The notes below the pieces were generated by a model. The model was given only the letters and a program-made list of their open reading frames with translations. It made no database searches and was not told the origin of the DNA. This document shows, in pieces, positions 7,379 to 33,179 of a stretch of 64,000 bases of DNA (its first letter is position 1; the number at the start of each line of letters is the position of its first letter). Source of the DNA: Methylophilales bacterium HTCC2181 (GTDB lineage Bacteria > Pseudomonadota > Gammaproteobacteria > Burkholderiales > Methylophilaceae); assembly GCA_000168995.1 (NCBI GenBank), contig AAUX01000001.1, positions 992,001 to 1,056,000 of the forward strand, read 5' to 3'. Made by a program: the position numbers and the translations under genes.

Positions 7379-8133
7379 GGAGCCTGTCCCGACACCCATA
7401 ACGCTTCAAGAAGATTTTTTTCTCGCAACGTATCCATAGGCTGCCAGAATCCTTTGTGCATATATGCTCCAAGCTCAGCCTCTTTGGCAAGCCTTTCAAG
7501 TGGCTCGCGCTCCCAGCTAGATTGGTCGCCCTCAATATAATCAATACACTTCGGAGACAAGACAAAAAATCCTCCATTGATCCAACCACCATCTCCTTTA
7601 GGCTTTTCAACAAACCGACTGACCAAATTATTTTGTATATCAACCGAGCCATAACGGCCTGGGGGCTGAACAGCCGTGATGGTAGCTAATTTTTTTTGTG
7701 ACCGATGAAAGTCAATCAATCCTGTTATGTCGACATTAGCCAACCCATCCCCATAGGTAAAACAAAAGGCTTCCTGGTCAGACACATAATCTTTAACTCG
7801 CTTGAGCCGGCCACCGGTTAGGGTGTCCTCGCCTGTGTCAACCAAGGTTACCTTCCATGGTTCTGCATTTTTTTGGTGGACATCCATGGTGTTATTTTTC
7901 ATGTCAAATGTGACGTCTGACATATGAAGAAAATAATTGGCGAAGTACTCTTTAACAAGATAACCCTTATAACCGCAACAAATGACAAAATCATTAATAC
8001 CGTTAGCAGAGTATATTTTCATTAAATGCCACAGCATAGGTCTTCCGCCTATTTCAATCATCGGCTTGGGTTTAAGGTGAGTCTCCTCAGAAATTCTTGT
8101 TCCCAACCCACCAGCTAATATAACTGCTTTCAT
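7360..8133 (-). CDS. rfbF: Glucose-1-phosphate cytidylyltransferase
   Basis: 257 residues. N-terminal nucleotidyltransferase signature [18 protein letters not shown] followed by [16 protein letters not shown], then [13 protein letters not shown] (metal-binding Asp) and [19 protein letters not shown]. It makes CDP-glucose from CTP and glucose-1-phosphate and starts the CDP-deoxysugar branch completed by rfbG, the epimerase, the C-methyltransferase and the aminotransferase downstream. A mutated copy of its first 26 codons survives at 23711-23789. The 50 nt between rmlC and rfbF marks the joint between the dTDP-rhamnose and CDP-sugar modules. Confidence 0.95.
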
Positions 8134-8183: not shown

Positions 8184-8732
8184 TCACGAAAATAAATCTG
8201 CTTCTTTAAATAGTTTTCCCAATGAATCCTTAGCGGAAAAAAATAATCTATCTTTGTTGGGCCAATTAATATTTAAAACAGAATCATTCCATGCAATACA
8301 CCGCTCATCGATTGGTGAATAAAAATTAGTGGCTTTGTAATACACCAAAGCAGTATCCGATAGAGTCAAAAATCCATGGGCAAATCCCTCAGGAATCCAT
8401 ATTTGTTTTTTATTTTCTGCTGACAAGGTAGCGGAAACGTATCGACCAAATGTTGACGAAGACCTTCTAATATCAACAGCAACATCAAAAACTTCTCCTT
8501 GAAGGACTGATACCAATTTGCCTTGAGGAAAAGGTGATTTTTGATAATGTAAGCCACGCAAAACTCCGGAAATTGATTGAGAAATATTATCTTGCACGAA
8601 GATGGCATCTTCATCTACAAACTCGTTAAAATTTTTCTGATTAAAAGTCTCATAAAAAAGACCTCTCTCATCCTTAAAGATTTTAGGATCTAAAATTTTT
8701 ACCTCAGGTATTGATAGTGAAGTGACCTTCAT
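8184..8732 (-). CDS. rmlC: dTDP-4-dehydrorhamnose 3,5-epimerase
   Basis: 182 residues, standard RmlC length. Motifs: [22 protein letters not shown] (catalytic His), [15 protein letters not shown] (partner Asp), [16 protein letters not shown] and [11 protein letters not shown] with the tyrosine used for C5 epimerisation. Step three of dTDP-L-rhamnose synthesis. The start overlaps the rmlA stop by 4 nt. Together with rmlA it is separated from rmlB and rmlD by about 21 kb, whereas these four genes usually sit together; the scar next to rmlA explains this. Confidence 0.93.
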
Positions 8733-9604
8733 GGTTTATTAATTAATCTCAAAAGATACTGCCCGTATTCATTTTTTTTAAGGGGGGTTGCTAAAGCTTC
8801 TAGTTGTATACTATCTATCCAATTATTTCGAAAGGCTATTTCTTCAGGGCACGCTACTTTTAAGCCTTGTCTATTTTCAATTGTAGCAATAAATTGCCCA
8901 GCTTCCAGTAATGAGTCGTGAGTGCCTGTGTCAAGCCACGCATAGCCACGATCCATTCGCTCAACATATAATTGATTACCTTCTAGGTATTTTTTGTTTA
9001 GGTCGGTTATCTCTAGCTCCCCACGTTTAGAGGGATGCAACTGCTTGGCGAGCTCCACGGCCCGATTGTCATAAAAGTACAATCCAGTCACGGCGAAGTT
9101 AGATTTAGGGTTAATGGGCTTCTCCTCAAGCGATTTGACCTGGTTGTTTTGGTCAAATTCAGCCACACCATAACGCTCTGGATCTTTAACATGGTAGACA
9201 AAAATTGTTGCTCCCTGCTCTCTCTCTGAAGCAGAATGAAGAAGCGAGTTTATATCGTGGCCATAAAAGATATTATCACCCAGGATAAGAGCTGTGGCAT
9301 TGTCCCCAATAAATGTCTCGCCAATAATCAGTGCTTGGGCAAGGCCATCGGGGCTTGGTTGTTCTTTGTAGCTAAGGTCTATCCCCCACTGAGACCCATC
9401 TCCTAATAGCGATTCAAACATCGGTAAATCATGGGGCGTTGAGATAATAAGAATCTCTCGGATTCCGGCCAGCATAAGAGTGGTAAGAGGATAATAGATC
9501 ATTGGCTTGTCATAGACCGGAAGTAACTGTTTTGATGTCACATGGGTTACTGGGTAGAGCCTTGTGCCCGAGCCGCCTGCGAGGATGATGCCTTTACGCT
9601 TCAT
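8729..9604 (-). CDS. rmlA: Glucose-1-phosphate thymidylyltransferase
   Basis: 291 residues from ATG 9604 ([18 protein letters not shown]); an upstream in-frame start at 9628 is rejected because it lies inside the rmlD remnant, whose TGA overlaps this ATG. Motifs: [30 protein letters not shown] (metal Asp), VTGLYFYDN and [13 protein letters not shown]. It makes dTDP-glucose, the first step of dTDP-rhamnose. The upstream rmlD is only a 3' remnant; the intact rmlD lies at 30656-31555 and is followed by a fragment of another rmlA start. Confidence 0.95.
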
Positions 9605-9853
9605 AGTTTTCTTAATTCCGTTTTCCAATCATCAAATTTTAGCATAAAGGCAGTCTTGATTAATGAATTATCAAGCACGCTACTTTTTGGACGCTTGGCA
9701 TTAGTGGGATACTGATCTGTGCCTACCGAAAGAATATTATTTATATCGAAAGCTGGGGTAGTCTTGGTAATAATCTGCCAAGTAAACTCATACCATGAAC
9801 ACTACCCGTCCGGAACGAGGTGATAAATGCCTGTATTTTTAGAGCTTAATTTT
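9584..9853. repeat. Left copy of duplicated rmlD-3'/rmlA-5' junction
   Basis: This stretch matches 30700-30968 in the same orientation with scattered differences. Shared landmarks in plus-strand order are the rmlA start region (gatgatgcctttacgcttca here, gatcatgcctttccgcttca there), then the rmlD 3' coding region, ending near aaatgcctgtattttt. Similarity stops close to 9853. The two copies flank about 21 kb of polysaccharide genes, as expected if that block entered between rmlD and rmlA and left a copy of the junction on each side. The divergence between copies suggests an old event or a donor from another strain. Confidence 0.85.
9601..9853 (-). pseudogene. rmlD: Remnant of rmlD (C-terminal about 80 codons)
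   Basis: Read on the minus strand, the sequence translates as the end of RmlD: NTGIYHLVPDG, a TAG stop, then CSWYEFTWQIITKTTPAF, GTDQYPTNAKRPKSS and VLDNSLIKTAF, ending in TGA at 9601. It parallels the C-terminus of the intact RmlD at 30656-31555. The 5' two thirds are missing and an internal stop (where the intact gene has Gln after LVPDG) breaks the frame. Its natural stop overlaps the rmlA ATG (ATGA), showing the ancestral order rmlD-rmlA. The rest of the 9605-9950 interval, from about 9854, shows no gene. Confidence 0.88.
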
Positions 9854-15046: not shown

Positions 15047-15985
15047 CTACGGTTTATAGTTGTGGTAAATGGTTTTTATCATAAATATAAGATAACTTTT
15101 TATTCTTTGCCACATTGTATGTTTTGCAAAAATTTTGAAAAGATTCAGATTAATGATATACCATGAACCACATAACCTGATTTTTTTTGGAAATATTATT
15201 GTATTGATTTTAAAGTTACTTACATTAGCAAATGAATCTAAATTACTGTTTGTCCTACCATGTATGCCACTCCCATCAAATCCATTATTAATTACCAATG
15301 TTTCCCTTGGATACAGAGTAAGTGCATCACTTATGAACGCAGTTAAGTAAAAGCGAATGGCCCAGGAATCGACTCTTCCAGCACGCTGATCTTCCATCAT
15401 TGAAAAGTAATCACATGCACCATTTAAATTAAAACGATCTCGAAGCAAAGGATCGTTTTTGAGCTGTTCATAGCCAGTAGCGTTGATATCAAGTAAATCC
15501 CAAGATCTCTTCCAAGTAGCCCAACCCCATGATGAGGTAAGTGGTAAAAATAACGCGTCTTCTTTAATATTTATAGTTAATGGAAACATGTAACCAGCAA
15601 TCTGTATCACTTTTACTTCCTCTTCATATTTGCATAGACTTGCATTCATGTACTTAAGGAAATAAGGCGAGACGAGTAAGTCATCTTCCATGACAATCAC
15701 ACGACCATACTTGTTAATTACTTTTGTTACACCATCAATTATTGACTTAGATAGCCCCCAATTTTTTTCTCTCTCGATAATAGTAACTTTTTTGAAACCA
15801 TTAATTTTTTTAATATAACTTCTTACCTTTAAAACTTTTTCATCTATTTTATTATTCTTTGCATTATCTGCATATATAAATAGCTCACTTTCTGAAGCTA
15901 GTTCATTGTTTTGTAGTGCTTTAATAGTCTTTTGTGTATGCCGGGGCCGATTATAGACAAAAAGTACTATCGGAGATAAATTCAT
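15047..15985 (-). CDS. GNT-I-like/family 2-like glycosyltransferase
   Basis: 312 residues. The start PIVLFVYNRPRHTQKTI and the segment NWGLSKSIIDGVT then GRVIVMEDDLLVSPYFLKYMN (EDD metal-binding site near residue 97) match the GNT-I/sugar-transferase type GT-A proteins common in bacterial glycan clusters. TSSWGWATWKRSWDLLD is the second typical motif of this group. Likely a cytoplasmic glycosyltransferase. The start shares one base with the stop of the 499-residue protein upstream. Confidence 0.8.
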   Translation of the reverse strand: MNLSPIVLFVYNRPRHTQKTIKALQNNELASESELFIYADNAKNNKIDEKVLKVRSYIKKINGFKKVTIIEREKNWGLSKSIIDGVTKVINKYGRVIVMEDDLLVSPYFLKYMNASLCKYEEEVKVIQIAGYMFPLTINIKEDALFLPLTSSWGWATWKRSWDLLDINATGYEQLKNDPLLRDRFNLNGACDYFSMMEDQRAGRVDSWAIRFYLTAFISDALTLYPRETLVINNGFDGSGIHGRTNSNLDSFANVSNFKINTIIFPKKIRLCGSWYIINLNLFKIFAKHTMWQRIKSYLIFMIKTIYHNYKP

Positions 15986-17484
15986 TAAGTATTGGTTGAC
16001 CTTAAAATACTTTCAACTACTCTTTGTAAAGATTGACCATCATTGATCCCAAAAAAATGATTAGAAAAACTCTTCATTTTTTCTCGGGTTTCTAAGAATT
16101 TTTTAGGATTTTTCATAATATTGCTTATTATATCAAAGGTAGCATTCTCACCATCGGCAATAATTGCTGCTCCATACTCTTCAGGAAATGGAAACATGGA
16201 GTGTTGCTCTCTCATTTTCATTATAATGGGAATAACATTGCAGGCTGCTGCTTCAGATAGTGTTGTGGAGTAGAACCCAACAGCACACACAACTTCATTC
16301 ATGACTTCAGTTAAGGTGTATTCAGTTGCAGGCATTAGCTTCACAAGCTCAGGGTGTTGCAATGAAAGAAGGTCGAACACTGTAGAGCTGTCAACTGGGT
16401 GCTTGCGAACAATCACCTTTGCATCAGGAAGGTTTTTTAAAACTGTAGTACAAATATTTGTTAAAGCAGCATATTCCTGTTCAGAAATATGCTTACTGAT
16501 TGGCTGCGTAAATATTGCAATAGTAAAGTTGTTGGTTGATTGGCCACCCTTTTTCAAATCATTAAATAATGGCGTTCCTGTTACTTCGTAAACGGGTCTG
16601 GGAGAGTGCCTTTTGTAATGCTGCACAAAACCCTCTCCCCAACATAGCATTTTATCAAAGGACATGCCTCTATACCCACAGTGCATAACTCCACCTCTTC
16701 CACTTTGCATTCGAACTGTTGGAATTGATAGTTTTTTAGCTGCTTGTGATGAAATCTCATCTTGCATAGAAGTGCCTTCAGCGAACACCAACACTGAGGG
16801 TTGGCTATAACTCAAAGTAGCAAGCATGTTTGTATAAGCCTGTAGTATGTTTGCATAAATAAAAAATAGTGGGTGAAATATCGGAATGTGTATACTAAGC
16901 AAGCTTAAACTGCCTGACATTAACTTCTGTGGAGAAGCACCAACCGTCAATATAGATTCATTTAAAGCATTAGAATCATTTGAAAAAATGATCTTTTGAT
17001 GTTCTTTAAAAGCTGTGATGGTCTCTTTAAAAAATATAAGAAATCGTGGGTTGATTACAAAAAAACCTATTGACTTTTTATCTTCATTCCATAAATGTCT
17101 CTCCTTGCTAAGCATTAAGCTTCTCATTGCCATGAAGCAAACTTTCAAATAAGCAACAACACCTCTTAATATCAAATTTACCTCACTCTTAAAACCGTTA
17201 AGGATTTCAATTTCTTTATACAAATCTAGCAATGCCTGATTTTTATTTTGAGCAGCCCAATCTCTTGAAGCTGCAATCAATGGTAATAGAGCTGATGGTT
17301 GATTAATTGCACTGAAGTAAAAATAGCGTGCAAAAGCTGCTCTAAAATTCACTTCCTCATACATAAATAGGTTTGAATATTTTTTTTCTTGCCAATCTAG
17401 TAGTGACTCTATTAATTCCGTTAATAGTATCTCATCTACAATTAAAACTGGCGATTTTAAGAAATTTGAGAATAAACCAAACAT
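15985..17484 (-). CDS. Putative GT-B-fold glycosyltransferase next to CMP-sugar synthetase
   Basis: 499 residues, not confidently placed in a family. The N-terminal half is helical without a recognised motif. The C-terminal half looks like a GT-B C-domain: MLCWGEGFVQHYKRHSP, FTIAIFTQPISK, KVIVRKHPVDSS (the RKHP motif of capsule-type and polysialyl-like transferases) and VGFYSTTLSEAAACNVIPII. It lies 67 nt downstream of the CMP-sugar synthetase gene, so it is the best local candidate to transfer the CMP-activated acidic sugar. That role is an inference from position and the RKHP/ST-rich C-domain. Confidence 0.6.
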   Translation of the reverse strand: MFGLFSNFLKSPVLIVDEILLTELIESLLDWQEKKYSNLFMYEEVNFRAAFARYFYFSAINQPSALLPLIAASRDWAAQNKNQALLDLYKEIEILNGFKSEVNLILRGVVAYLKVCFMAMRSLMLSKERHLWNEDKKSIGFFVINPRFLIFFKETITAFKEHQKIIFSNDSNALNESILTVGASPQKLMSGSLSLLSIHIPIFHPLFFIYANILQAYTNMLATLSYSQPSVLVFAEGTSMQDEISSQAAKKLSIPTVRMQSGRGGVMHCGYRGMSFDKMLCWGEGFVQHYKRHSPRPVYEVTGTPLFNDLKKGGQSTNNFTIAIFTQPISKHISEQEYAALTNICTTVLKNLPDAKVIVRKHPVDSSTVFDLLSLQHPELVKLMPATEYTLTEVMNEVVCAVGFYSTTLSEAAACNVIPIIMKMREQHSMFPFPEEYGAAIIADGENATFDIISNIMKNPKKFLETREKMKSFSNHFFGINDGQSLQRVVESILRSTNT

Positions 17485-17551
17485 TATAAAGAGATTTTAT
17501 TTAGATCATTCATTTTTTTATGTATAAACTTGAGTTCAAAATTAACTACGT

Positions 17552-18259
17552 CTATATTTGTACGCTTGCTTTAGCTAAAGCAGTAGCAGTTATAAAATCT
17601 ATCTCATTATCAATATCAACAGAGTCTTTTTGACTCATTAAATATGGCAGTGCATTATGATATAACGTATTAGTTTCACGGCTTTCAAGGCTTTCTATAC
17701 TTCGTACATACAAGGCACCATTGGGATGAAATGCCTTTTTTTGGTCCTGGCTCCTAGTGATTCCTGTTACCAGAGGAGAAGAGTCAAAAGCTTGCTTCCA
17801 GCCATTATTTTCATCCAAATAAAACGCAAAGGAAACTGGAAAGTTATACTCAGAAGCTGAGAAAACAGGTTTAGCTCTTTTCTCAAAAAGTGCAATTGCC
17901 TCAGCTACATGTTGCGAGTTTCGAAAAGGTACTGTTGGCAAACCCATTACAAAGTTACCTTCCCTGCACTTAAAAATATTGTTATAATTTTGTTTAAGAT
18001 AGTCAAACACTTTAACTTTATCCCCAGCTTGCTCGGGTGTTCTAAAGTCTAAAACGAGTTTATTTGACTTAATATATTGTTGAGCAATATCCCAATAATC
18101 CATTGAATCTGTTGAGAAAACTACTTTTTTAATTTTTTTATTTTTTACAAAAGCTTCCAATGTCCATACAACAAGCGGCTTACCAGCTAACATTTTTATA
18201 TTTTTACCTGGTAAGCGCTTAGACCCTGAACGTGCAGGTACAAATGCAATATAACTCAC
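17552..18259 (-). CDS. CMP-nonulosonate/acylneuraminate-type cytidylyltransferase
   Basis: 235 residues. The N-terminal motif FVPARSGSKRLPGKNIKMLAG is the CTP-binding signature of CMP-NeuAc/CMP-Leg/CMP-Pse synthetases; VVFSTDSMDYWDIA and the later AEAIALFEKRAKPVFSA follow the family pattern, and DIDNEIDFITATALA resembles the metal-binding end. It should activate a 2-keto-3-deoxy sugar acid with CMP. It overlaps the aldolase-like gene by 4 nt and forms a set with the NeuB fusion gene. Which acid it uses is open. Confidence 0.87.
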   Translation of the reverse strand: MSYIAFVPARSGSKRLPGKNIKMLAGKPLVVWTLEAFVKNKKIKKVVFSTDSMDYWDIAQQYIKSNKLVLDFRTPEQAGDKVKVFDYLKQNYNNIFKCREGNFVMGLPTVPFRNSQHVAEAIALFEKRAKPVFSASEYNFPVSFAFYLDENNGWKQAFDSSPLVTGITRSQDQKKAFHPNGALYVRSIESLESRETNTLYHNALPYLMSQKDSVDIDNEIDFITATALAKASVQI

Positions 18260-19203
18260 GAGCCGAAGAACTCGTTGATGGCTTTTTCGGTTTTCTTAAA
18301 CACCTCTTCTACTTCCTTGTACTCAGTGTCATTTATCGACTTTAAGGGCATGCGGTCACGTCTGTGCATAAAGCCTGCTGCTTGCAGTAATGCTTTATTA
18401 GTTCTATGCCAGCCATACTTAGCTGCACATTCATTAAAGAATGGTGCTTCTAACTTCTCTAAAATAAAGTTTATTTTTTCTTTATCATCTTTTAGGCAAG
18501 CTTCCCAGAATGTTTCACCAATACGTGCATCTAGCATAGATATACCATTCAGATATGATTTGGCACCATATGGCAAATACTGGATTAAGCTCGCTTTTTT
18601 ACCCGCAATAACAACGCGGATTCTTGGTTCTAGTTCTAATGCAAGGCAAGTTGTCTCAAAATCTTTGGCATCCTCTTTAAGCGCGACTATTTCTGGAATT
18701 TGAGGTAATTTTTTAAATAAAGAATATGGCCAGTTCATCTGCTTACCATCATAACCTGACAAAAAAGGCATTTCGTGCACAAGTATTGGCATTTTAGTTG
18801 ACGTGCCAACCTCTGAATAATGGTCTAAAATTTGCTCATCATTGAAGTATTTCTCTCTGACCAATAAAGACACCAAGTCTGCACCATGCTCTTTTGCATG
18901 TTTCGCAAACTCAATCGTTTCCTTTGTGGAGCAGTGAATTGGATCACCAACTACTACAAGGTTCTGCTGATCAAGTTTCTTGACAGTTTGTATACAAAAA
19001 GCATTCAAATCCCTGATTTCTTGATGAGTTAACTGAGAGTATCGAGAGTTATATGCCATCGCGTAAAACTTACGAGCACCTTGTTGATATAATGTACATA
19101 AGTACTTATTTATCGATTCATAATCAATATTTTCATTCTCATCAAATGGTGTAAATATAGTGTAAACACAACCTTCAAGACGTTGCTTTATATCATCATA
19201 CAT
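18256..19203 (-). CDS. Divergent DapA/N-acetylneuraminate-lyase family protein
   Basis: 315 residues with the (beta/alpha)8 layout of the DHDPS/NAL family: VYTIFTPFDENENIDYES at the start, DPIHCSTKETIEFAKHAKE mid-protein and EIVALKEDAKDFE with the presumed Schiff-base lysine at about residue 176. Two usual active-site elements are altered: the GTTGE pyruvate-binding loop is replaced by AYNSRYSQLT (about residues 50-59), and the tyrosine of the usual YNVP segment by VHEMP (about 142-146). It therefore may not be a standard pyruvate aldolase. The gene lies between the CMP-synthetase and the GMD-like dehydratase. Confidence 0.82.
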   Translation of the reverse strand: MYDDIKQRLEGCVYTIFTPFDENENIDYESINKYLCTLYQQGARKFYAMAYNSRYSQLTHQEIRDLNAFCIQTVKKLDQQNLVVVGDPIHCSTKETIEFAKHAKEHGADLVSLLVREKYFNDEQILDHYSEVGTSTKMPILVHEMPFLSGYDGKQMNWPYSLFKKLPQIPEIVALKEDAKDFETTCLALELEPRIRVVIAGKKASLIQYLPYGAKSYLNGISMLDARIGETFWEACLKDDKEKINFILEKLEAPFFNECAAKYGWHRTNKALLQAAGFMHRRDRMPLKSINDTEYKEVEEVFKKTEKAINEFFGS

Positions 19204-20236
19204 TTGTAATTCCTTTTTCCCATCTTTCTATATCAACCTTAGTCATCTCAGTAATAATTTTCTCTATTGGTCTTGACCCAAGCCAGCCTGTTGTTTTTTT
19301 TAATTTACTTGAGTCACCTAATCTAGCGGAAGTATCAAACGGTCTAAAGTAACTTTCAGACAAATAAGCAATTTTTTGCCCCGTACGGCTATCGACGCAT
19401 ACCTCAGAAATTCCCTCTCCCTCAAAAGAAGGGCTAAAACCCGCATATTCTGCTGACATCTTCAAGAAGCTTCTTACAGATGTTAGTTTGCCTGTAGCAA
19501 AAACAAAATCATCCGATTTGCTGGAACTCAATGTGAGAATCATCGCTTTTGTAAAGTCTTCTGCAGACCCCCAGTCTCTGCAAGAATCGAAGGAACCTAA
19601 TTCAAAAGGTTCACCTCCTTGGGTAGCCAACCTTGCCATATTGTAAGTAATTTTGCGTGTAACAAAGCTTCTTGTCCTCAATGGTCCTTCATGATTGAAT
19701 AAAATGCCTATGCTCGCAAACAAACCGTATCGATCTCTATACATTTTAACTAAATGTTGCGCTGCCATTTTAGAGATGGCATATGGGTTTGAAGGGAGAA
19801 GCGAGCTTTCCTCGTTCAATAATACATCCTTCTCAGTATTGCCAAAAACTTCTGAGCTAGAAGCAAAGAAAATTCGTGTATCTTTTGACACAATTCTGAT
19901 CGCTTCAAGAATATTCAAAGTACCATTAATATTTGCTTTAATTGTTGTTAACGGGTGTAAAAATGAATCAGCAACATAACTCTCCCCAGCTACGTGAAAA
20001 ATATAATCAGGTTTTATTTCTTGAATTGTTTCAATTAAGTGATTCGGTTCATCAATATTTATATTAACGAGCTTTATTTTATTTAATATATCTAGATGCT
20101 CTAAACGCCATGTTTTATTGCTAGATCCACGCCTAAAACCCCCATAAACAGTAAAATCCTGATTAAGCAAATGTGCGGCAATGTGAGCGCCATCTTGTCC
20201 AGTAACCCCTAGAATAAGCGCAGTTTTATTTTTCAT
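19196..20236 (-). CDS. GDP-mannose 4,6-dehydratase-like nucleotide-sugar dehydratase
   Basis: 346 residues. LILGVTGQDGAHIAAHLL, FFASSSEVFGNTE, NPYAISKMAAQHL (Tyr-x3-Lys), GILFNHEGPLRTRSFVTRKI and CRDWGSAEDFTKAM follow Gmd closely, yet it differs clearly from the canonical Gmd at 26532-27614. The conserved core suggests a 4,6-dehydratase acting on a GDP- (or related) sugar. Linked by 8-11 nt overlaps to the aldolase-like gene and to the NeuB fusion, it may make the 4-keto-6-deoxy precursor of the CMP-activated acid, as GDP-linked precursors do in the Campylobacter legionaminate pathway. Confidence 0.83.
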   Translation of the reverse strand: MKNKTALILGVTGQDGAHIAAHLLNQDFTVYGGFRRGSSNKTWRLEHLDILNKIKLVNINIDEPNHLIETIQEIKPDYIFHVAGESYVADSFLHPLTTIKANINGTLNILEAIRIVSKDTRIFFASSSEVFGNTEKDVLLNEESSLLPSNPYAISKMAAQHLVKMYRDRYGLFASIGILFNHEGPLRTRSFVTRKITYNMARLATQGGEPFELGSFDSCRDWGSAEDFTKAMILTLSSSKSDDFVFATGKLTSVRSFLKMSAEYAGFSPSFEGEGISEVCVDSRTGQKIAYLSESYFRPFDTSARLGDSSKLKKTTGWLGSRPIEKIITEMTKVDIERWEKGITNV

Positions 20237-22073
20237 TATTAAATAATCTTTCTAAATTTGAAATTGCTTTGCTGAAACCAGCACCACCATCAAGGTGTCC
20301 TTGCCAAACCTCGATTACCTTCATACAATCAAAATCAAATGCTTTTTTTAATGTCTTCATATTTTTAGCATCACCTTCTCCAAATTGCAAACCTTCGCCA
20401 TCGATACCTGCTGCATCGGCTATATGCAAATGTTCTATACGAGGGCTTAGTAAGTCAACTATGTTTGGAGCATCGAAATCAAACAAGCTATCTCCCATGC
20501 ATAAATGACATATATCCATACATATGGGTAGTTCGTGTTGATCAATATAAGCAACATCTTTTAACTCATTCATCACATCTAATTTAACAGAGCCTCCAAA
20601 GTACCAAGCAATCGGGGGTAACCATTGAGGTAGGATTAATATACCTTGATTTCGAAAGCTAGATAGTAAATTCGTGTATTCTTCATAAAATTCAGCAACA
20701 CTCTTATGCACAACAGAAAAGCTTCCGACAATTGGAACTTGCATCCCTATTTTGTCTTGTAATAACTTCGCGAAATCAACTGTACGTTGCAATATATCAA
20801 GGCTACCTTGAGCCTGACTCTTATCGTCAGAAAAAGGATCCATCAACTTTGTAGAGCTTATATAATCAGGTAAGTGTATGCTGTATCTGTTGTTGCTTTT
20901 AAAAGTATTTCTATTAAAACCGTTCAGCACTTCCTTAAAAGAAAGATGAAACTCATAAGCTCCTATCGGAAATTTATTTTCGAAATCATTTAAATCGTGC
21001 AATCTAACTGGGATAGATATTTTATTTTCACGTGCGAATGATAATGCACTATCAGACACTTGTTCAGACTTAAGGAATACTGACTCACTTATGACTTCGC
21101 CAACACCAATATTCTTTAAAGCAGGTTTACCCAAATACTTTACCATATCAGCTCGCCCAAACCCGACTCTAGGTGACCGAAATGATAAATCTTGGAAACT
21201 GACTATATCTCCCTTCAGAATATTACCTTTTGCATAATATGAACGGCCTAGGTTTTGGAAGTTAAGCATTTCGCCTTGATTAGGCACTCTGTTAAAATTT
21301 CCCGTCATTAATAATTGCATGTTTTCAGAGAAAGTGGCTATTTTTGCGAACTCTTCTGGAGTTGAACTTGTTGTATGGTCTAAACCATCTGCATTCTTAT
21401 CAAATGTGATATGCCTTTCAATAACAGTAGCCCCCATACTCATTGCAATTAAACATACCTCCCAGTCTTCATCATGACTAGAGTAGCCATAAGGACGCTG
21501 CCATTTTTCACGCATGTGGCTAAGGTAACCAAGATGCGCATTTGATAAAGAAACGGGATAATTAGACACGCAATGAAGGGCAATCCAGTTATTTTTATCC
21601 AATGCCATAAATGCATCATCAATCTGATCCTCATGATGACAGCCAAGTGAAACATAAACAGGCTTATCAAAACCAAGCATTTTGTTAATGAGTGGGGCAT
21701 TGTTTAATTCCACTGAAGGCGATTTAAAGAAATCAAAATGGTGAATACCATCCCCGAAATCTGCAATATCTGCTTCATCAAAAAAACTTATGCCTGCTTC
21801 AATATCAAGAGAATGTGCATCATCAACAAGTCTTAAAATCACTTCAGGAGATAGATAGTTTTTTGTAATTTCTTTAAGTAACATTTCATCGCCAATTTGT
21901 TTTGCACCATCGGCATAAGCATTATCAAGATTTCGGTATTGAAATTTAATGCCATTAACTTTTGCTTGAGCTGCTGCCTTTATTAATTCTAGCGCTATTG
22001 AAAAATCTCCGCCGTGATTAATACCAATCTCAGCAATGATAAAAATTGGCTTACTATTAATATTTTGATTCAT
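20226..22073 (-). CDS. NeuB-type sugar-acid synthase fused to a TIM-barrel isomerase domain
   Basis: 615 residues, against about 340-350 for ordinary NeuB. Residues 8-265 are a NeuB barrel: FIIAEIGINHGGDF, NGIKFQY, HCVSNYPVSL, GYSSHDED and VIERHITFDK, with His200 and His221 at the usual metal positions. About 277-337 is a SAF/antifreeze-like domain (AKGNILKGDIVSFQDL, GVGEVISESV). About 350-615 looks like a xylose-isomerase/AP-endonuclease-2 barrel: ICMDICHLCMGD, IEHLHIADAAGIDGEG and VIEVWQGHLDGG carry candidate metal ligands. It should condense PEP with a hexose-type sugar; the extra barrel could isomerise or epimerise that sugar. The role of the fused domain is inferred. Confidence 0.85.
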   Translation of the reverse strand: MNQNINSKPIFIIAEIGINHGGDFSIALELIKAAAQAKVNGIKFQYRNLDNAYADGAKQIGDEMLLKEITKNYLSPEVILRLVDDAHSLDIEAGISFFDEADIADFGDGIHHFDFFKSPSVELNNAPLINKMLGFDKPVYVSLGCHHEDQIDDAFMALDKNNWIALHCVSNYPVSLSNAHLGYLSHMREKWQRPYGYSSHDEDWEVCLIAMSMGATVIERHITFDKNADGLDHTTSSTPEEFAKIATFSENMQLLMTGNFNRVPNQGEMLNFQNLGRSYYAKGNILKGDIVSFQDLSFRSPRVGFGRADMVKYLGKPALKNIGVGEVISESVFLKSEQVSDSALSFARENKISIPVRLHDLNDFENKFPIGAYEFHLSFKEVLNGFNRNTFKSNNRYSIHLPDYISSTKLMDPFSDDKSQAQGSLDILQRTVDFAKLLQDKIGMQVPIVGSFSVVHKSVAEFYEEYTNLLSSFRNQGILILPQWLPPIAWYFGGSVKLDVMNELKDVAYIDQHELPICMDICHLCMGDSLFDFDAPNIVDLLSPRIEHLHIADAAGIDGEGLQFGEGDAKNMKTLKKAFDFDCMKVIEVWQGHLDGGAGFSKAISNLERLFNNEK

Positions 22074-23153: not shown

Positions 23154-23789
23154 CTAATAAATTCGTTTTAAATAACCATCAGGTGCAACACCAATCAACA
23201 ACTTGCTATCGAATGATTTATCAATTTCAAACTCAGAATGGTTTTTTAAAAACTCTTTAACAGCAGTTTTTGGGTTATTCCCTGGGCCCCAAGGGCGATC
23301 ACCTGACTGTTCCTTCATCATATCTTCTATAATAGTATCAAATACAACACAATAACTATTAACACTGGTTAATGAGGCATAAGCTTCAAGCTCTGCTAAA
23401 ACATGATCATGTGTATGGTTTGAATCTAAACTAATTAATATACAACTATAGTTTTGAGCGTATTCATTAACTTTAGCAATAATTTCAGATGCAATAGAAG
23501 ATCCTTGGAGCATGTCAATACGATTCCCCATGGGGGGTGCCTCAATTGCTTTGAGATTGTGTTCACGTATGTCTATATCAATCCCTAACACTCTCCGCTT
23601 AGGCCTTTTAGGGTCAAGCAATTCACCAGTTGCCAGAGCATCACAATAATCTAGCATTGAAAGAAAAGAGGCATTCATAATGAGAGATCCACCATGAGCG
23701 ATGCCTGTTTCAATCATCGGTTTCGGCTTCACTTGTGTTTATTCTGAAATTCGAGTCTCTAATCCACCAGCTAAAATAATTGCTTTCAT
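23154..23789 (-). pseudogene. Chimeric pseudogene: rfbF start joined to cmcI-type end
   Basis: From ATG 23789 the frame reads MKAIILAGGLETRISE, a TAA stop, then TQVKPKPMIE, which is the N-terminus of RfbF with GTR's preceding Gly changed to Glu and codon 17 changed from Glu to stop. Without a frame change it then becomes TGIAHGGSLIMNAS and follows the CmcI-type protein at 1839-2606 to its end (VAPDGYLKR). The first about 80 residues of that protein and the remaining about 230 of RfbF are gone. The join lies where both parents encode IE-x-G. A GTG at 23732 could still start a 192-residue product, but half of the SAM-side fold would be missing. Confidence 0.9.
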
Positions 23790-23800: not shown

Positions 23801-25567
23801 TTATATTTCATCTATTATCTTTCCATTTCTTAATGTATAGATATTGTCGCATTTATCTAATGTTTTCAATCTATGTGCAACTGTTATTATTGTTTTTTGA
23901 CCATGCAGTGCAAAAATTGCATCCATTAAATCAGCCTCTGTTTTAATATCCAAGTTGCTTGTTGCCTCATCTAAAACCAAAACCTCTGGCTTGTGGTAAA
24001 GTGCGCGAGCAATTCCAATCCGCTGACGTTGTCCGCCTGAAATCCTAACGCCTCGCTCTCCTACAATTGTGTTCAGACCTTCCGGTAAATCATTAATAAA
24101 ATTTTCCAATTGTGCTAAAGAGATTGCCTTTTGAATTGAGGTGTGATTAATATCATCATCATTAATACCAAAGGCAATATTTCGACGCAGTGTGTCATCA
24201 ATAAGGAAAATTTCTTGCGGTACGTACCCTATTTGATTCTGCCAACCTCTTAAGTTTTCACTTATATCAACACCATCTAAATGTAAATTTCCACTAGTAG
24301 GCGATAAAACTCCTAAAATTATATCTATGAGTGTACTTTTACCTGAGCCACTTTCCCCTACAAAGCCAATAAAGTCCCCTTTATTAATCCTAAGAGAGAT
24401 TGAGTTTAATGCTTTGGAGTCAGCATTGGGGTAGCTATAGCTTAAATTCTTAATTTGAAAGTTATTTTTAAATTTCATTTTATCAACATTTCCAGATTTA
24501 ATAAGTTGGGGTTCGTTAAGACTTAACTCCTCACTTAGTAAATTTAATGTTGGTAACCCAAATCTCAGTTGCTGAATTGCAGTGATAATACGATTAGCTG
24601 AGGGTATTAAGCGAAATGCTACTAAAGCATACAAAGACAAGGTTGGTAACATCATTGATATTGGTATTTGCTGAAGTACCATGCTTCCCACTAACAAAAA
24701 TAAACTTATTAAAGTAAGGAGCTCTAACCAAAGCCTTGGCATTTGATTAATAAATAGTTGCCGCTGGTTACATTCCATACTTTTGTTTGTATGAATTGTA
24801 TATTTATCAATAAAATCATGCTCTCGACCATATAATTTTGTCTCTTTAACTCCTCCCAAGCCTTGGTATAGTTGCTGAATCCTTAAACCCTCATGAATGA
24901 TTCGTTGTTTTGCCCAATGTAAAGTACGGTTTTTTGTAAATCTATGAAACTGTGTTGCAAAAAAAATTAAGGTGCTTAACATTACTGTGGTGCCTATTGG
25001 CTCTACAAATAACAACAATACAGAAAATCCTAGGAGAATAAGCATTTCTGTCAATAAATAAAGACATGGAGTCACCACCGAGTTTATAAATACAGATACC
25101 TCACCCTGAATATTTCTTATAAGCTGCCCTGAATTTTTTTGAAGATGATATTGATATGGTTGTTTTAAATAATTTGAAAATAACTTTATAGCTATCTCGG
25201 ACTGCAATCCAAATATTAATTTAGATTGCTTCCAGGCTAGCAATGCCAGGAAGCTATTTTTAATAATATAAGCGAAAACTAAGGCTAGCATTAAACTCAT
25301 AATCAAGGTTTCTACGGATGGATTATTTAGTCGCTGAATTAGCTCACCTAATACTGGGTATGAAGTATAAATATCTTTTTGGGTCAATAATGCAATTACA
25401 GGAATTATAAGACCAATACCAATCATTTCAAGCAACACCCCAAAAATTACCATAATCCATAGCTTAATTAATGACCTCTTTTTAGATTCAGGGATCAAAA
25501 ACCAAATATTTTTGAAAAAACTGAAAGTTCTTTTTAGTTTTTTATCTTTTAATAATTGTGAAGACAT
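23801..25567 (-). CDS. ABC transporter, fused permease-ATPase (PglK/MsbA-like glycan flippase)
   Basis: 588 residues. Six membrane spans in the first about 330 residues (e.g. LWIMVIFGVLLEMIGIGLII), then an ATPase domain with Walker A GESGSGKSTL, signature VRISGGQRQRIGIARAL, Walker B VLVLDEATSNLD and the switch His in TVAHRL. This half-transporter type dimerises; PglK-like members flip lipid-linked oligosaccharides, MsbA flips lipid A. Its place directly after fcl and before the chimeric pseudogene suggests a glycan role. It begins one base inside the fcl stop region. Confidence 0.88.
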   Translation of the reverse strand: MSSQLLKDKKLKRTFSFFKNIWFLIPESKKRSLIKLWIMVIFGVLLEMIGIGLIIPVIALLTQKDIYTSYPVLGELIQRLNNPSVETLIMSLMLALVFAYIIKNSFLALLAWKQSKLIFGLQSEIAIKLFSNYLKQPYQYHLQKNSGQLIRNIQGEVSVFINSVVTPCLYLLTEMLILLGFSVLLLFVEPIGTTVMLSTLIFFATQFHRFTKNRTLHWAKQRIIHEGLRIQQLYQGLGGVKETKLYGREHDFIDKYTIHTNKSMECNQRQLFINQMPRLWLELLTLISLFLLVGSMVLQQIPISMMLPTLSLYALVAFRLIPSANRIITAIQQLRFGLPTLNLLSEELSLNEPQLIKSGNVDKMKFKNNFQIKNLSYSYPNADSKALNSISLRINKGDFIGFVGESGSGKSTLIDIILGVLSPTSGNLHLDGVDISENLRGWQNQIGYVPQEIFLIDDTLRRNIAFGINDDDINHTSIQKAISLAQLENFINDLPEGLNTIVGERGVRISGGQRQRIGIARALYHKPEVLVLDEATSNLDIKTEADLMDAIFALHGQKTIITVAHRLKTLDKCDNIYTLRNGKIIDEI

Positions 25568-26526
25568 TATTTATTTTTATTTTTGAGAAAATCCTGATAA
25601 GCCATCTTAATTCCATCTGTAAGTGATACTTTTGGCGACCATCCTAGTTGATTAATAGTGGTGGAATCCATTATTTTTCTGGGTGTCCCATTCGGTCGAT
25701 TGACATCAAAATCAATTTCACCCTTGAACCCTATAATTTTTTGAATAGTAAGAGCCAAGTCTTTTATTGTTAAATCTTCTCCATATCCAACATTTATCAA
25801 AGGGGGTGAAGCTTTAAGGAGATTTTCAAATCTAACAGATGGTAATTGAGCAATATAGACACACGCTTCAGCTAAATCCTCGCTGTACAAAAACTCCCTC
25901 CGGGGCGAGCCAGTGCCCCATATAACAACTCTTGGGTGATTATTGGTCTTTGCCTCATGAAATTTCCGTATTAATGCAGGCATAACATGATTATCTTCGA
26001 TATCATAATTATCGCCAGGTCCATATAAATTGGTTGGCATTACCGCAATATTCTGAGTGCCGTATTGCCGATTATAGCTCCCACACATTTCAACGCCTGC
26101 AATCTTTGCCAAAGCATAAGCTTTATTTGTTAATTCCAATGGTCCAGTAAGAAGATATTCCTCTTTAATTGGCTGGGGGCAATCTCGTGGATATATACAA
26201 CTTGAACCTAAAAATATTACCCGTTTTACACCGTTAACATATGACTCATGAATAACATTTGTTTGAATGGCTAAATTAGAAAAAATAAATTCGGCTGGAT
26301 ATGTTTTATTGGCATGAATACCTCCAACTTTTGCGGCAGCTAAAAATACATATTCAGGCTTTTCTTTTTTAAAGAAGGTTTGCACCGCCAACTGATTCGT
26401 TAAATCTAGTTCTGCATGTGTTCGGGCAAGAATATTTGTATAGCCTTGCTTTCTTAATTGTCTAGTAAGAGCTCCCCCTACAAGACCGCGATGCCCTGCT
26501 ACATATATTTTAGCATTTTTATCCAT
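25567..26526 (-). CDS. fcl: GDP-L-fucose synthase
   Basis: 319 residues. IYVAGHRGLVGGALTRQL is the Rossmann start typical of Fcl/WcaG, LGSSCIYPRDCPQPIKEE holds the active-site Ser/Cys, NKAYALAKIAGVEMC the Tyr-x3-Lys, and MPTNLYGPGDNYD the family-specific segment. It converts GDP-4-keto-6-deoxymannose to GDP-L-fucose by epimerisation and NADPH reduction. It lies 5 nt downstream of gmd, whose product it uses. Confidence 0.95.
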   Translation of the reverse strand: MDKNAKIYVAGHRGLVGGALTRQLRKQGYTNILARTHAELDLTNQLAVQTFFKKEKPEYVFLAAAKVGGIHANKTYPAEFIFSNLAIQTNVIHESYVNGVKRVIFLGSSCIYPRDCPQPIKEEYLLTGPLELTNKAYALAKIAGVEMCGSYNRQYGTQNIAVMPTNLYGPGDNYDIEDNHVMPALIRKFHEAKTNNHPRVVIWGTGSPRREFLYSEDLAEACVYIAQLPSVRFENLLKASPPLINVGYGEDLTIKDLALTIQKIIGFKGEIDFDVNRPNGTPRKIMDSTTINQLGWSPKVSLTDGIKMAYQDFLKNKNK

Positions 26527-26531
26527 TAAAT

Positions 26532-27614
26532 TTATTCATAATAATTCATTGCTTTAAAGCCATGTTCTTTTATTAATTCATCGCGTTGTGCAGACTTGTA
26601 ATCTTCTCTCACCATTTCAGCAACTAATTCACTAAACGTAATTTTAGGTGTCCATCCCAATTTTTTCTTAGCTTTGCTAGGATCACCGAGTAAAGTCTCA
26701 ACTTCTGTTGGCCTAAAGTACTTCTCATCAACTTTAACAATACACTTATCATCCGCGTACCCTTTTTCATCTGCGCCATTACCCTGCCAAGAGATATCCA
26801 TCTCGAGTTCTTTTGCCGCCGCGTTGACAAAATCACGGACACTGTATTGCACACCAGTTGCGATAACATAATCCTCTGGTTTCTCTTGTTGGAGCATCAT
26901 CCATTGCATTTCCACATAATCCTTAGCATGACCCCAATCACGTAAAGCATCCAAATTGCCAAGATACAACGTTTCTTGCAACCCTAATTTTATCTGTGCT
27001 AATGCTCTTGTAATCTTTCTAGTAACAAATGTCTCACCTCGTAGTGGACTTTCGTGATTAAATAAAATACCGTTGCAAGCATAAATACCATAAGCCTCTC
27101 GATAGTTAACGACAATCCAATATGCATATAATTTGGCTACGGCGTAAGGGCTACGTGGATAGAATGGTGTTTTTTCTGTTTGTGGCATTTCTTGGACTAA
27201 ACCGTAGAGCTCTGATGTTGAAGCTTGATAAAACTTCGTTTTTTTCTCGAGTCCTAAAAATCGAATGGCCTCAAGTAACCTCAAGGTACCCAAACCGTCT
27301 ACATCGGCTGTATACTCTGGAGACTCAAAACTCACAGCGACATGACTCATCGCAGCTAAATTGTATACTTCGTCAGGCTGAACGTGTTTAATAATTCGAG
27401 ACAAATTCGACGAATCGGTTAAATCTCCATAATGCAATATAAAATTCCTATTATCTACATGTGGGTCTTGATAAAGGTGGTCGATACGTTCGGTATTTAA
27501 TGAAGAGGAACGACGCTTGATACCATGAACAACATAGTCTTTCTTTAACAAAAACTCTGCTAAATAAGCACCATCTTGTCCAGTAATTCCTGTTATTAAA
27601 GCTACTTTACTCAT
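26532..27614 (-). CDS. gmd: GDP-mannose 4,6-dehydratase
   Basis: 360 residues from ATG 27614; AAGGA is 8 nt upstream, whereas the earlier in-frame start at 27620 is a TTG. Motifs: [73 protein letters not shown], and the C-terminal [20 protein letters not shown]. Canonical Gmd making GDP-4-keto-6-deoxymannose. With manC upstream and fcl downstream it completes GDP-fucose formation. The 166 nt before it contain no gene and may hold an internal promoter. Confidence 0.96.
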
Positions 27615-27780
27615 CTTCAATTTCCTTATGGTTTTCTTAAGCGTGTCATTATGATCTTATAAAGAGCCGGAATAAATTAAACTAAAAAAAGGCTCAACTA
27701 TTTAATTAACGACATCGCCTTTTATTCTCCTCAATCTAACTAATTATTCAATAAGATTAGTGGTTTAAACTCATCCTCTT

Positions 27781-29211
27781 CTATCTTCCATAATTATCCT
27801 CCAATCTCTCAATATCATCCTCACCAAGGTAGTCTCCTGATTGAACCTCAATGATCTGCGTAATTTTATTTGTTTGGTTCGATATACGATGAATTTGGTT
27901 TTTTTTTATATAGATAGATTCATTTTCTTTTAATGTATAAACTTTATCATCTCTAGTGATGGTCGCCATACCTTTTATCACAACCCAATGCTCAGATCTT
28001 CGTTGGTGTTTTTGCAGGCTAATAGATTTTTTTGGATTGATCTGAATGCGCTTGACCTTAAAATTCTCCCCTTCATCAATCGTATCAAACCAGCCCCAAG
28101 GACGATTGACTTTGGTGTGCTCAATAAGTAAGTTCGTATGATTTTTTTCTAATATCATTACGAACTCTTTTATAGATTGTGCATTGTCTTTATTTGCGAC
28201 TAGCACACTGTCGTTTGTCTCAACTACGATTAAGTTATCAACTCCTATAAGACTTAAGTTTTTCCTAGTCGCAATTGCGATGGTATTCTTGCTATTTAAG
28301 CTGACTACATCCCCTTCGAAGATATTACCCTCCTTATCTTTTGATTTAATTTCATCCAGCGCGCTAAAAGATCCCAGATCTGACCAACCGGCATTTAATA
28401 AAACAAGTTTCATATTAATGCCAAGAGTTTTAGTTTGCTCCATAACAGCATAATCTATAGAATCTGATGGTGAGTTTTTGAAACAATTTTCATCAGGCCT
28501 CACAAACCACTGATCGCTTGACTTAAGCTGCCAAGACTTTTCTACAGAATCAGAGATTTGTTTATTGCTCTGGGCAATAGCGTTGATCCAGGTATTTGAT
28601 TGTAGGATAAATATGCCGCCATTCCAGGCATGCTGAGATTTCGCAACCATGATTTTTGCAGTTTCAATATCAGGCTTTTCTTTAAAGGCAAGAACATCTT
28701 TAACAGCTTCTTTACCTTGATATTCAATATATCCAAATCCTGTATCGGGTCTTGAAGGCTGAATACCCAAAGTCACAATAGTTTTATTTTTAACAGCATG
28801 GATGGCAGTGTGCATTGCGAGAATAAAGCTTGAATTGTCTTTTACAAAATGATCTGCAGGTGTTACTACAAGAATAGATTTAGGATTTTTTTCAATAGCA
28901 GCTAGAGCGGCAAGAGAAAGCGCCGGTGCAGTATTCCTGGGCTCAGATTCTAATAGAATTCTAATCGAAACTTTGGACTTAAGTTCATCGAGTTGCTCAA
29001 GGACTAAGAAACGATGGCTTTCATTGGTAACAATTAAAATTTCTTCTATCTGAATCTTTTCACTTTCTAATTCAATAGCTCGTAAGACACTTTGTTGAAA
29101 CAAGGTGGTATCCCCTACCAATTTTAAAAATTGTTTAGGGTAATGCTGACGCGATAAAGGCCAAAGTCGAGTACCAGATCCACCGCAGAGAATTACAGGA
29201 GTGATTTTCAT
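27781..29211 (-). CDS. manC: Mannose-1-phosphate guanylyltransferase/mannose-6-phosphate isomerase
   Basis: 476 residues, the usual two-domain type II PMI/GMP. N-terminal transferase: ILCGGSGTRLWPLSRQHYPK, VVTPADHFVKDN and FKEKPD followed by WNGGIFIL. C-terminal cupin isomerase from about 350: VNRPWGWFDTIDEGENFKVK, LQKHQRRSEHWVV with metal-binding His residues, and IYIKKNQIHRISN. It makes GDP-mannose from mannose-1-phosphate for gmd and fcl; the hexomutase at 51446-52828 could supply mannose-1-phosphate. Confidence 0.94.
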   Translation of the reverse strand: MKITPVILCGGSGTRLWPLSRQHYPKQFLKLVGDTTLFQQSVLRAIELESEKIQIEEILIVTNESHRFLVLEQLDELKSKVSIRILLESEPRNTAPALSLAALAAIEKNPKSILVVTPADHFVKDNSSFILAMHTAIHAVKNKTIVTLGIQPSRPDTGFGYIEYQGKEAVKDVLAFKEKPDIETAKIMVAKSQHAWNGGIFILQSNTWINAIAQSNKQISDSVEKSWQLKSSDQWFVRPDENCFKNSPSDSIDYAVMEQTKTLGINMKLVLLNAGWSDLGSFSALDEIKSKDKEGNIFEGDVVSLNSKNTIAIATRKNLSLIGVDNLIVVETNDSVLVANKDNAQSIKEFVMILEKNHTNLLIEHTKVNRPWGWFDTIDEGENFKVKRIQINPKKSISLQKHQRRSEHWVVIKGMATITRDDKVYTLKENESIYIKKNQIHRISNQTNKITQIIEVQSGDYLGEDDIERLEDNYGR

Positions 29212-29356
29212 ATGATGTTCTTAATGTTAAGATCTTTGTTCAAAGCGATAAATTCTCCATTGATTCTTCCAGCTCAGCAATTGAACTAAGAATAACTCTA
29301 TGCTCTAAAATATGTTTTTTAATTAATTTTTTAATTAATTTTTTATATATTTTAAA

Positions 29357-30532: not shown

Positions 30533-30655
30533 ATAATTTAAAGTAATATTTAATTAACTAACTGGAAGTCGTAATTGTGCTAGATGTAATTAATTGAAGC
30601 CCGTTGAAAGGGTTATAATTTGTTTTCAATTTTTATTAAAGCCCAGAATCTATTT

Positions 30656-32610: not shown

Positions 32611-33179
32611 ACGTTTAGTCCTAAGCCTTCCTCAATCAGTTCACACAGAATGTGGCCGATGGTGATATGCATCTCCTGAATGCGTGCGGTGGATTCAGAT
32701 GGAATAACGATGGCATGGTCTGCTATCTCTAACGCTTGACCACCCCCTTTTCCCAAAAATCCTACGGTATGCATTTTTTTGTTTTTTGCTGCATTTAAAG
32801 CGAGGTTCACATTGGCACTTTGACCCGAGGTGGATATACCAACCAGGATGTCACCTTCCTCCCCCAATGCCTCAACCTGCCGAGAGAAAATGTGTTCGTA
32901 TCCGTAGTCGTTTACGATGCAGGTCATGACAGCCGAATCCGCATTCAACGAGATCGACTTTAGAGGCTTTCTATCCCCCTTGAACCGACCAATCAATTCA
33001 CCTGCTAGGTGTTGCGCATCGGATGCACTCCCCCCGTTACCACACCAAAAAATAGTCTTCCCATTTTTTAATGCATTAATCATTATTATGGCAATCTGCT
33101 CAATAGCATTATCTAGAGTTTGGAGTTGCGATGATACCTCTTGGTGCTCAGCCAGGTTTCGTTCAATGGTTTTTTTCAT
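32607..33179 (-). CDS. gmhA: D-sedoheptulose 7-phosphate isomerase
   Basis: 190 residues, SIS-domain protein of GmhA length. FWCGNGGSASDAQHLAGELIGRF (two SIS substrate-binding segments with the catalytic Glu), GISTSGQSANVNLAL and the terminal EMHITIGHILCELIEE with the catalytic His match GmhA/phosphoheptose isomerases; DiaA-type paralogues are a less likely alternative. It makes heptose phosphate for LPS core or a heptose-containing glycan. First gene of the long minus-strand polysaccharide locus. Confidence 0.85.
   Translation of the reverse strand: MKKTIERNLAEHQEVSSQLQTLDNAIEQIAIIMINALKNGKTIFWCGNGGSASDAQHLAGELIGRFKGDRKPLKSISLNADSAVMTCIVNDYGYEHIFSRQVEALGEEGDILVGISTSGQSANVNLALNAAKNKKMHTVGFLGKGGGQALEIADHAIVIPSESTARIQEMHITIGHILCELIEEGLGLNV

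Follow-up and report, generated by a model that had tools for sequence, protein, structure and literature searches.

The window analysed here, 64,000 nucleotides of contig AAUX01000001.1 of Methylophilales bacterium HTCC2181, carries on its minus strand, at 15985-22073, five adjacent genes that a first-pass annotation had proposed as an unusual nonulosonic acid pathway, built around a fusion of NeuB, SAF and a second TIM barrel. All five open reading frames (ORFs) are present, and the fusion is real, with three Pfam domains in one ORF of 615 residues. We favour, at somewhat better than even confidence, the reading that the genes at 17552-22073 are a conserved cassette for a 2-keto-3-deoxy sugar acid, similar to sialic acid and activated with cytidine monophosphate (CMP), made from an acceptor sugar that has no 2-acetamido group and is probably 6-deoxy; the product would most likely be transferred to a surface polysaccharide by the adjacent GT-B-fold protein. 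The features of the locus are as follows.

20226-22073, minus strand: NeuB-SAF-TIM-barrel fusion synthase, 615 residues (assigned from Pfam matches, relatives and tree)
20229-21071, minus strand: C-terminal xylose-isomerase-like barrel of the fusion, residues 335-615 (AlphaFold2 model, PDB neighbours, MJ1311 alignment, conservation)
19196-20236, minus strand: GDP-mannose 4,6-dehydratase (GMD)-like nucleoside diphosphate (NDP)-sugar 4,6-dehydratase, 346 residues, with Ser127-Ser128-Glu129, Tyr152 and Lys156 kept
18256-19203, minus strand: protein of the DapA/N-acetylneuraminate lyase family, 315 residues, with putative Schiff-base Lys176 and Tyr119
17552-18259, minus strand: CMP-sugar (ulosonate) synthetase, 235 residues, PseF-like, far under the PseF cut-off
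15985-17484, minus strand: GT-B-fold protein with a VRKHP motif, 499 residues, candidate CMP-ulosonate transferase or relative of NDP-sugar hydrolases/epimerases
15047-15985, minus strand: GT-A protein (Glycos_transf_2), adjoining the GT-B gene as it does in two other loci (L050 and L051)

In the fusion, the Pfam matches cover residues 30-255 (NeuB, 153 bits, about 21309-21986 on the DNA), 277-331 (SAF, 21 bits, exactly the cut-off, 21081-21245) and 411-607 (AP_endonuc_2, 40 bits, 20253-20843). The next three proteins match GDP_Man_Dehyd (315 bits), DHDPS (72 bits) and CTP_transf_3 (74 bits, cut-off 22.6), and no Pfam family matches the GT-B protein at 0.01. None of the five proteins reaches an NCBIfam cut-off, and curated Pfam and NCBIfam families give superfamily names only. 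The first four genes, counted from the fusion, overlap by 11, 8 and 4 bases and are therefore very likely to be read as one transcript; the GT-B gene is set apart by 67 bases. The GT-A protein probably works on the same glycan, outside the biosynthetic core.

The view of the fusion as a peculiarity of this stretch has to be corrected, as it belongs to a widespread family. A scan of a collection of 84,980 species with the barrel only found at least 540 relatives, of which the best 80 loci were kept (designated L and a number), and in all 80 the barrel shares one ORF with NeuB. The closest fusion among these best 80, from Methylophilus (L049), is 69-70% identical to that of the window. No full-length relative was found in 60 other genomes (30 of the same genus, many incomplete), 18 of which match over the NeuB half only; among other genomes, the barrel occurs in 6 of 398 from the order and, at 1e-10, in 4 of 397 from a phylum sample. 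A tree built from 78 fusions, those of the window and of 77 among the kept loci, divides into clade I, with 22 rows including the window, and clade II, with 56 rows, and the branch between them has a support of 100 in the approximate likelihood ratio test (SH-aLRT). The lineages represent 13 phyla, some records being metagenome bins that are perhaps mislabelled, and two fusions (L070 and L071) are near-identical though differently named. Phage or plasmid origin was considered and rejected: no phage record gives 80% cover, and the single plasmid record is from Ensifer canadensis. Three proteins compared with PHROGs have no match there.

ORFs were picked greedily and antisense ORFs masked some genes, such as the dehydratase of L059, which was regained by tblastn; the neighbour counts given below for the 85 parsed loci are therefore lower bounds. 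The fusions of L082, L085 and L117, masked at first and regained later, stand outside the fusion tree, the residue counts (n = 85) and the neighbour counts. Length of at least 700 residues was the stand-in for an N-terminal pair of CBS domains in the tree labels, and some long ORFs may merely start upstream; CBS-like sequence was recognised by eye in the fusions of L028, L042, L043 and L044.

The first-pass annotation had suggested counting how often the fusion co-occurs with the GMD-like and the DapA-like gene. The former is a nearly constant partner: a gene for a GMD-family dehydratase directly follows the fusion in 20 of 22 clade I loci, window counted, and the remaining two (L066 and L068) have a more distant GMD-fold gene nearby. 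Seventeen of these dehydratases, counting the window's, group together in a clade (support 96/99) distinct from true GMDs. The clade does not take in the dehydratases of L065 and L069, whose placement is not settled, and that of L059 is absent from the dehydratase tree. NDP-sugar 4,6-dehydratases rely on Ser/Thr-x-Glu and YxxxK for catalysis, and the window protein keeps Ser-Ser-Glu and YxxxK, as would a short-chain enzyme of this type. It scores 279.8 bits against the GMD equivalog model TIGR01472, below the cut-off of 415. The Glu of the GETFVTRK motif, a putative reader of guanine, is lost in the window and in most clade I dehydratases and is kept in L065 and L069. The proposed GDP-linked 6-deoxy precursor is uncertain: the GMD catalytic residues are present, but a Glu conserved in the aligned true GMDs is gone.

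The DapA-like gene is optional, being found in 8 of 22 clade I loci (among the other 14, the contigs of L052, L054 and L064 break off within the dehydratase gene, too early to tell). Where it is present, the locus is well conserved: the order fusion, GMD-like, DapA-like, CMP-synthetase recurs in seven other loci of alpha- and gammaproteobacteria (L050, L051, L055, L056, L058, L059 and L060), a repetition of the four-gene block that goes beyond chance and marks the cassette as a conserved unit, as had been proposed. Compared with the window, the DapA-like proteins of these loci are 61-76% and the synthetases 52-66% identical. The eight synthetases encoded next to a DapA-like gene form one clade (100/100), and near-full-length synthetases of clade I loci that have no such gene are 27-35% identical to the window's; even L049 has no DapA-like gene, and its synthetase is 29% identical. 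Synthetases from L077, L130 and L053 join the DapA-linked clade (a 12-row set, 100/97, in which L077 is entered twice), and L077 and L130 combine a distant DapA-like gene (30% and 24% identity) with a plain NeuB and a CMP-synthetase. A third distant DapA-like gene (28%) is in L129, with no NeuB-like ORF in its 20-kb stretch. This co-variation of DapA-like protein and synthetase fits a modification between condensation and activation, and the gene is rare in the background: among other genomes, 2 of 398 in the order have it at 1e-12 and 0 of 397 in the phylum sample at 1e-20.

In class I pyruvate aldolases such as DapA and NanA, a Lys, which forms the Schiff base, and a Tyr have known roles; the corresponding Lys176 and Tyr119 are present in 11 of 11 aligned DapA-like relatives, so that the protein is a predicted member of this class. 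Likewise, the CTP_transf_3 domain assigns the putative synthetase to the family of CMP-ulosonate synthetases. Synthetase matches are found in 56 of 88 loci (14/22 in clade I, 42/66 in clade II), by hidden Markov models that, for the synthetase and GT-B counts alike, were built from the very loci searched. CMP activation is likely for the window's pathway, a claim that does not cover the whole family: there is no match in the stretches of all nine Pseudomonas/Stutzerimonas and all five Prochlorococcus/Polynucleobacter loci, some of them cut by contig ends.

The NeuB and SAF domains, with their phosphoenolpyruvate (PEP) and metal residues, make the fusion a member of the NeuB-type ulosonic acid synthases. 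Aligned to meningococcal NeuB, the equivalents of E25, K53, Q55, K129, S132, Y186, H215, E234, H236 and D247 are kept in the fusions wherever a row has a letter. The position of Arg314 is different: Ser in 77 fusions, Ala in 7, Gly in 1 and Arg in none of the 85; Arg is present in 14 of 27 plain NeuB relatives. According to one paper, this Arg may position the N-acetyl group, and the meningococcal R314A mutant is inactive (PMC6795526). Since Arg314 is gone from all 85 fusions, we infer from the alignment that their acceptor has no acetamido group, with caution in view of the plain relatives that do not have the Arg either. The plain NeuBs of L130 and L077, which have the motif AEMACAHNG, also have no Arg at this position. 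A candidate second NeuB of the genome (PF03102, 41 bits, G000:C3:753278) was set aside; the ORFs around it have no similarity to the window proteins compared, and from gene order we take it to be a 3-deoxy-D-arabino-heptulosonate 7-phosphate synthase.

The C-terminal barrel, when modelled as the first-pass annotation had suggested, gives a confident predicted fold (pLDDT, the model's confidence score, 94.8; alignment of 56 sequences). Its nearest solved folds are MJ1311, the UlaE 3-epimerase and xylose isomerase, with TM-scores by query length of 0.60-0.66 over the first nine ranks; 2-hydroxy-3-keto-glucal hydratase is at rank 16. Isomerases and epimerases of the AP_endonuc_2 family typically have a Glu-Asp-His-Glu metal tetrad. 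The putative site of the barrel, by alignment, consists of Gln483, Asp520, His548 or His550, and Glu588: a metal-binding Glu of MJ1311 aligns with Gln483, a Gln in 83 of 85 fusions (reading Gln-Asp-His-Glu) and a Glu in two. Of 15 positions chosen for conservation in a smaller alignment, 13 are invariant in all 85 (Asp360, Glu374, His376, His400, Trp490, Asp520, His523, His548, His550, Glu560, Glu588, Trp590 and His593), and Asp553 is kept in 78. The Gln could be taken to mean that the barrel is no longer an enzyme and has become a structural or regulatory extension of NeuB. This is quite improbable, considering that, across two deep clades, the putative site never varies at its Asp, His, Glu and Trp positions; judging by this conservation, the barrel is presumably an enzyme.

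On the reading that we favour, the GMD-like enzyme would make an NDP-4-keto-6-deoxy sugar, as its family and catalytic residues suggest, and the fused barrel, probably metal-dependent, might isomerise the NDP-sugar or release it as a free aldose, which is the weakest step of the scheme; the barrel may thus stand in for the missing epimerase, as the first-pass annotation had supposed. The NeuB/SAF part would then join PEP to the aldose, giving a 3-deoxy-2-ulosonic acid, a step to which the kept PEP and metal residues point strongly. The DapA-like enzyme may form a Schiff base at the 2-keto group and change C4, either by retro-aldol/aldol epimerisation or by dehydration. Finally, the PseF-like synthetase would, by its family, add CMP, and the GT-B protein could transfer the sugar. 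What the analysis demonstrates is the anatomy of the genes, their conservation and synteny, the co-variation of the DapA-like gene with one synthetase clade and the residue changes; substrates, product and barrel chemistry are deduced from these.

Several observations weigh against this scheme. None of the core genes is a clear candidate for releasing the sugar from its nucleotide. One clade I locus (L061) has a PF02350 protein, of the NeuC-type UDP-N-acetylglucosamine (UDP-GlcNAc) 2-epimerase family, two genes after the fusion (31.6 bits, just over the cut-off). As Gln replaces one metal-binding Glu, the chemistry of the barrel is not readable from known isomerases. The GMD-like enzyme has lost the Glu conserved in true GMDs, which makes GDP doubtful as the nucleotide. 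Arg314 is missing from 13 of 27 plain NeuB relatives, too, and meningococcal Asn184, replaced by Ser in 82 of 85 fusions, is also replaced in 17 of these 27, so that neither change is specific to the fusions. For 32 of 88 loci no CMP-synthetase is found, contig ends truncating some loci. There are, moreover, a LegC-like aminotransferase of the DegT family at 3389-4564, 11 kb off in the polysaccharide region that holds the cassette (302 bits with the LegC model, cut-off 420), and the structural neighbours of the GT-B protein, both considered next.

The missing NDP-releasing enzyme might be the GT-B protein, acting in place of the barrel as a diverged protein akin to NeuC/PseG-type hydrolases. 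The protein, which has VRKHP at residues 359-363, is modelled with fair confidence (pLDDT 79, five sequences). Of its 41 best Foldseek matches, which include many chains from shared entries, 39 bear the title UDP-GlcNAc 2-epimerase, MnaA or NeuC. A PDB sequence search with the GT-B alignment gives nothing at 0.1. In L055 and L056 a second family, which has a similar HP motif, occupies the slot that follows the synthetase, and in L053 likewise, on the opposite strand; hhalign finds the two HP-motif families homologous (98.8%) over 230 columns. A homologue in L130 has a weak PF02350 match (21.9 against 30.6 bits), and in L072 and L112 a relative stands directly after the fusion and a GMD-fold gene. 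On the other hand, MurG and TagF also appear, lower in the Foldseek list; the curated models that come nearest are two of the carbohydrate/glycosyltransferase kind, with scores far under cut-off; and the joint GT-B model matches only 10 of 22 clade I loci (L060 and L061 more weakly) and 3 of 66 in clade II; all ten clade I loci also have a synthetase match, as fits a transferase that uses a CMP-sugar. A NeuC-like hydrolase would supply the release step and is a real rival, albeit a rather unlikely one; transfer of the ulosonic acid to a surface polysaccharide is the most likely role of the gene. Less probable still is an ordinary neuraminic, legionaminic or pseudaminic acid pathway with its remaining genes elsewhere in the genome (1.3 Mb, rated 95% complete) or in the missing 5%. 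NeuB and a CMP-synthetase are common to these pathways, and the DegT gene matches the LegC model best. The first-pass annotation was right that the standard genes are not among the five, by Pfam; elsewhere in the genome it is the LegC-like DegT that was found and the PF02350 epimerase that was not (0 matches, as far as a 95% complete genome shows, with a positive control in 11 of 14 known genomes). For the LegG/NeuC or PseG hydrolase, the GT-B protein with its NeuC-like fold may be a candidate, and the absence of PF02350 matches does not extend to the PseG model, for which no search was made. LegH/PseH are not among the five genes either, a genome-wide search not having been made. The cassette has no LegC/PseC equivalog, and the lone strong DegT of the genome (302 and 250 bits, cut-offs 420 and 424) lies in another block of the window: it adjoins a C-methyltransferase, and close by are a glucose-1-phosphate cytidylyltransferase and a CDP-glucose 4,6-dehydratase that each exceed their cut-off. 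Because of these neighbours we read it as a member of a CDP-sugar block, and it would be counter-evidence only if it served both blocks. Further, the scores are far under the cut-offs (NeuB 188/400, PseI 137/340, PseF 119/206, LegC 302/420), the Arg314 position is lost, and in the seven DapA-like loci the six-gene neighbourhoods contain no labelled DegT family (labels being given to genes present in at least four loci). Taken together, this makes the ordinary pathway very improbable.

Clade II has other partners. In 85 parsed loci, a kinase family directly precedes the fusion in 27 (the sampled member, of L076, has CBS and GHMP kinase domains by Pfam), an HddC-like family stands two genes before it in 18, and in 10 the very next gene belongs to a SIS family. 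Samples of clade II neighbours match the HddA, HddC, GmhA and GmhB models, of which the GmhB one alone passes its cut-off. Some clade II loci, for example L043, have a fusion and a CMP-synthetase and no adjoining kinase, SIS, GMD-like or DapA-like gene, so that the acceptor may come from central metabolism. The barrel could then turn a common ketose or its phosphate into mannose or its phosphate, from which NeuB would make 3-deoxy-D-glycero-D-galacto-nonulosonic acid (Kdn), with the GMD-like and DapA-like enzymes trimming it or serving another residue. The loss of the Arg that places the N-acetyl group and the nearest barrel folds, 3-epimerases and xylose isomerase, agree with this; however, the GMD-like gene, nearly constant in the window's clade, would be needless for Kdn, and we regard such a route as unlikely. 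Side by side with it stands a speculation of our own, to which we likewise attach little weight: NeuB-barrel fusions might form a separate, hydrolase-free class of ulosonic synthases for non-acetamido acids, in which the barrel frees the sugar by keto-assisted elimination and hydration, in keeping with the hydratase among its fold neighbours. The window's clade would then convert an NDP-4-keto-6-deoxyhexose into a 3,9-dideoxynonulosonic acid, which the DapA-like enzyme would alter at C4, and clade II, many fusions of which adjoin HddA-, HddC- and GmhA-like genes, would convert GDP-heptose into a ten-carbon dec-2-ulosonic acid, a kind of sugar for which a single search of open-licence PubMed Central (PMC) text gave no paper. 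For the window's own genome, a GDP-heptose route was set aside, as there is no match to an HddA-like kinase; a GmhA-like isomerase gene exists at 32607-33179.

Directly before fusions of about 630 residues, as in L070, L087, L100 and others of clade II, stands a GHMP-kinase family, the tested member of which (L076) has its CBS domain at the N-terminus. Other fusions, of about 750 residues, seem to bear a CBS pair themselves, so that kinase and synthase may exchange this regulatory domain. A family of thiamine-diphosphate enzymes is found near fusions in 14 loci (L041, L062, L063, L067, L092 and L101 among them); the sole member tested, of L041, is acetolactate synthase-like, under the cut-off, and Gfo/Idh and PtmA-like dehydrogenases are often near the fusions of these loci. 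Around the cassette, 3389-8133 looks like a block for a CDP-linked C-methylated amino sugar (cytidylyltransferase, CDP-glucose 4,6-dehydratase, RmlC-like epimerase, C-methyltransferase and DegT). Two genes of the RMNT_CmcI family (rhamnosyl O-methyltransferase-like) are at 1839-2606 and 23154-23732 of the same polysaccharide region, and 8184-9628 and 25567-33179 hold dTDP-rhamnose-like (rmlA, rmlC, rmlB, rmlD) and GDP-fucose-like (manC, gmd, fcl) genes, where gmd passes its cut-off and most other names are given by domain or similarity.

Ulosonic acids, such as sialic acid, shape the contacts of bacterial surfaces with hosts, phages and grazers. One study uses the NeuB-type sequence to predict which ulosonic acid an organism makes and sets aside less conserved synthases as possible unknown specificities (PMC8053191). 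Given the size of the fusion family, its changed acceptor pocket and its different partner genes, predictions of this kind may overlook a class of products, for instance in freshwater and marine bacteria; the DapA-like gene that accompanies NeuB, with its own synthetase clade, would be a new modifying step that is directly testable. No title or abstract brought up by searches of open-licence PMC text describes the fusion or the four-gene set, and novelty is provisional as subscription journals are not covered. The cassette is well supported as a unit: it is a real and conserved variant of ulosonic acid biosynthesis, and apparently an uncharacterised one.

The fusion shares with N-acetylneuraminate synthase NeuB (TIGR03569, PF03102 and PF08666) the PEP-condensing barrel with its SAF lid and the examined metal and PEP residues, and differs by Ser at the Arg314 position, the second barrel and a score of 188 bits against 400. 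That barrel has the fold, DxxH, HxH and late Glu of D-tagatose 3-epimerase, UlaE and xylose isomerase (AP_endonuc_2, PF01261), but Gln in place of the first metal-binding Glu of MJ1311, and it is fused to NeuB in all kept loci. The dehydratase has the fold and the Ser-x-Glu, YxxxK and RDWG motifs of GMD; yet it belongs to a clade of its own, scores about 280 bits against 415 and has lost the GETFVTRK Glu. The DapA-like protein belongs to the fold family of DapA and N-acetylneuraminate lyase (PF00701) and has the Schiff-base Lys and Tyr, whereas its best NCBIfam score is 62 against 278 bits and YNSRYS replaces the GTTGE-type motif. As a whole, the cassette resembles the Campylobacter route to CMP-legionaminic acid, which, as Schoenhofen and co-workers reportedly described in 2009, goes through GDP-linked precursors: an NDP-sugar 4,6-dehydratase, a NeuB-type synthase and a CMP-synthetase are common to both, whereas the window cassette has no aminotransferase and its genome no PF02350 match, LegH not having been searched genome-wide.

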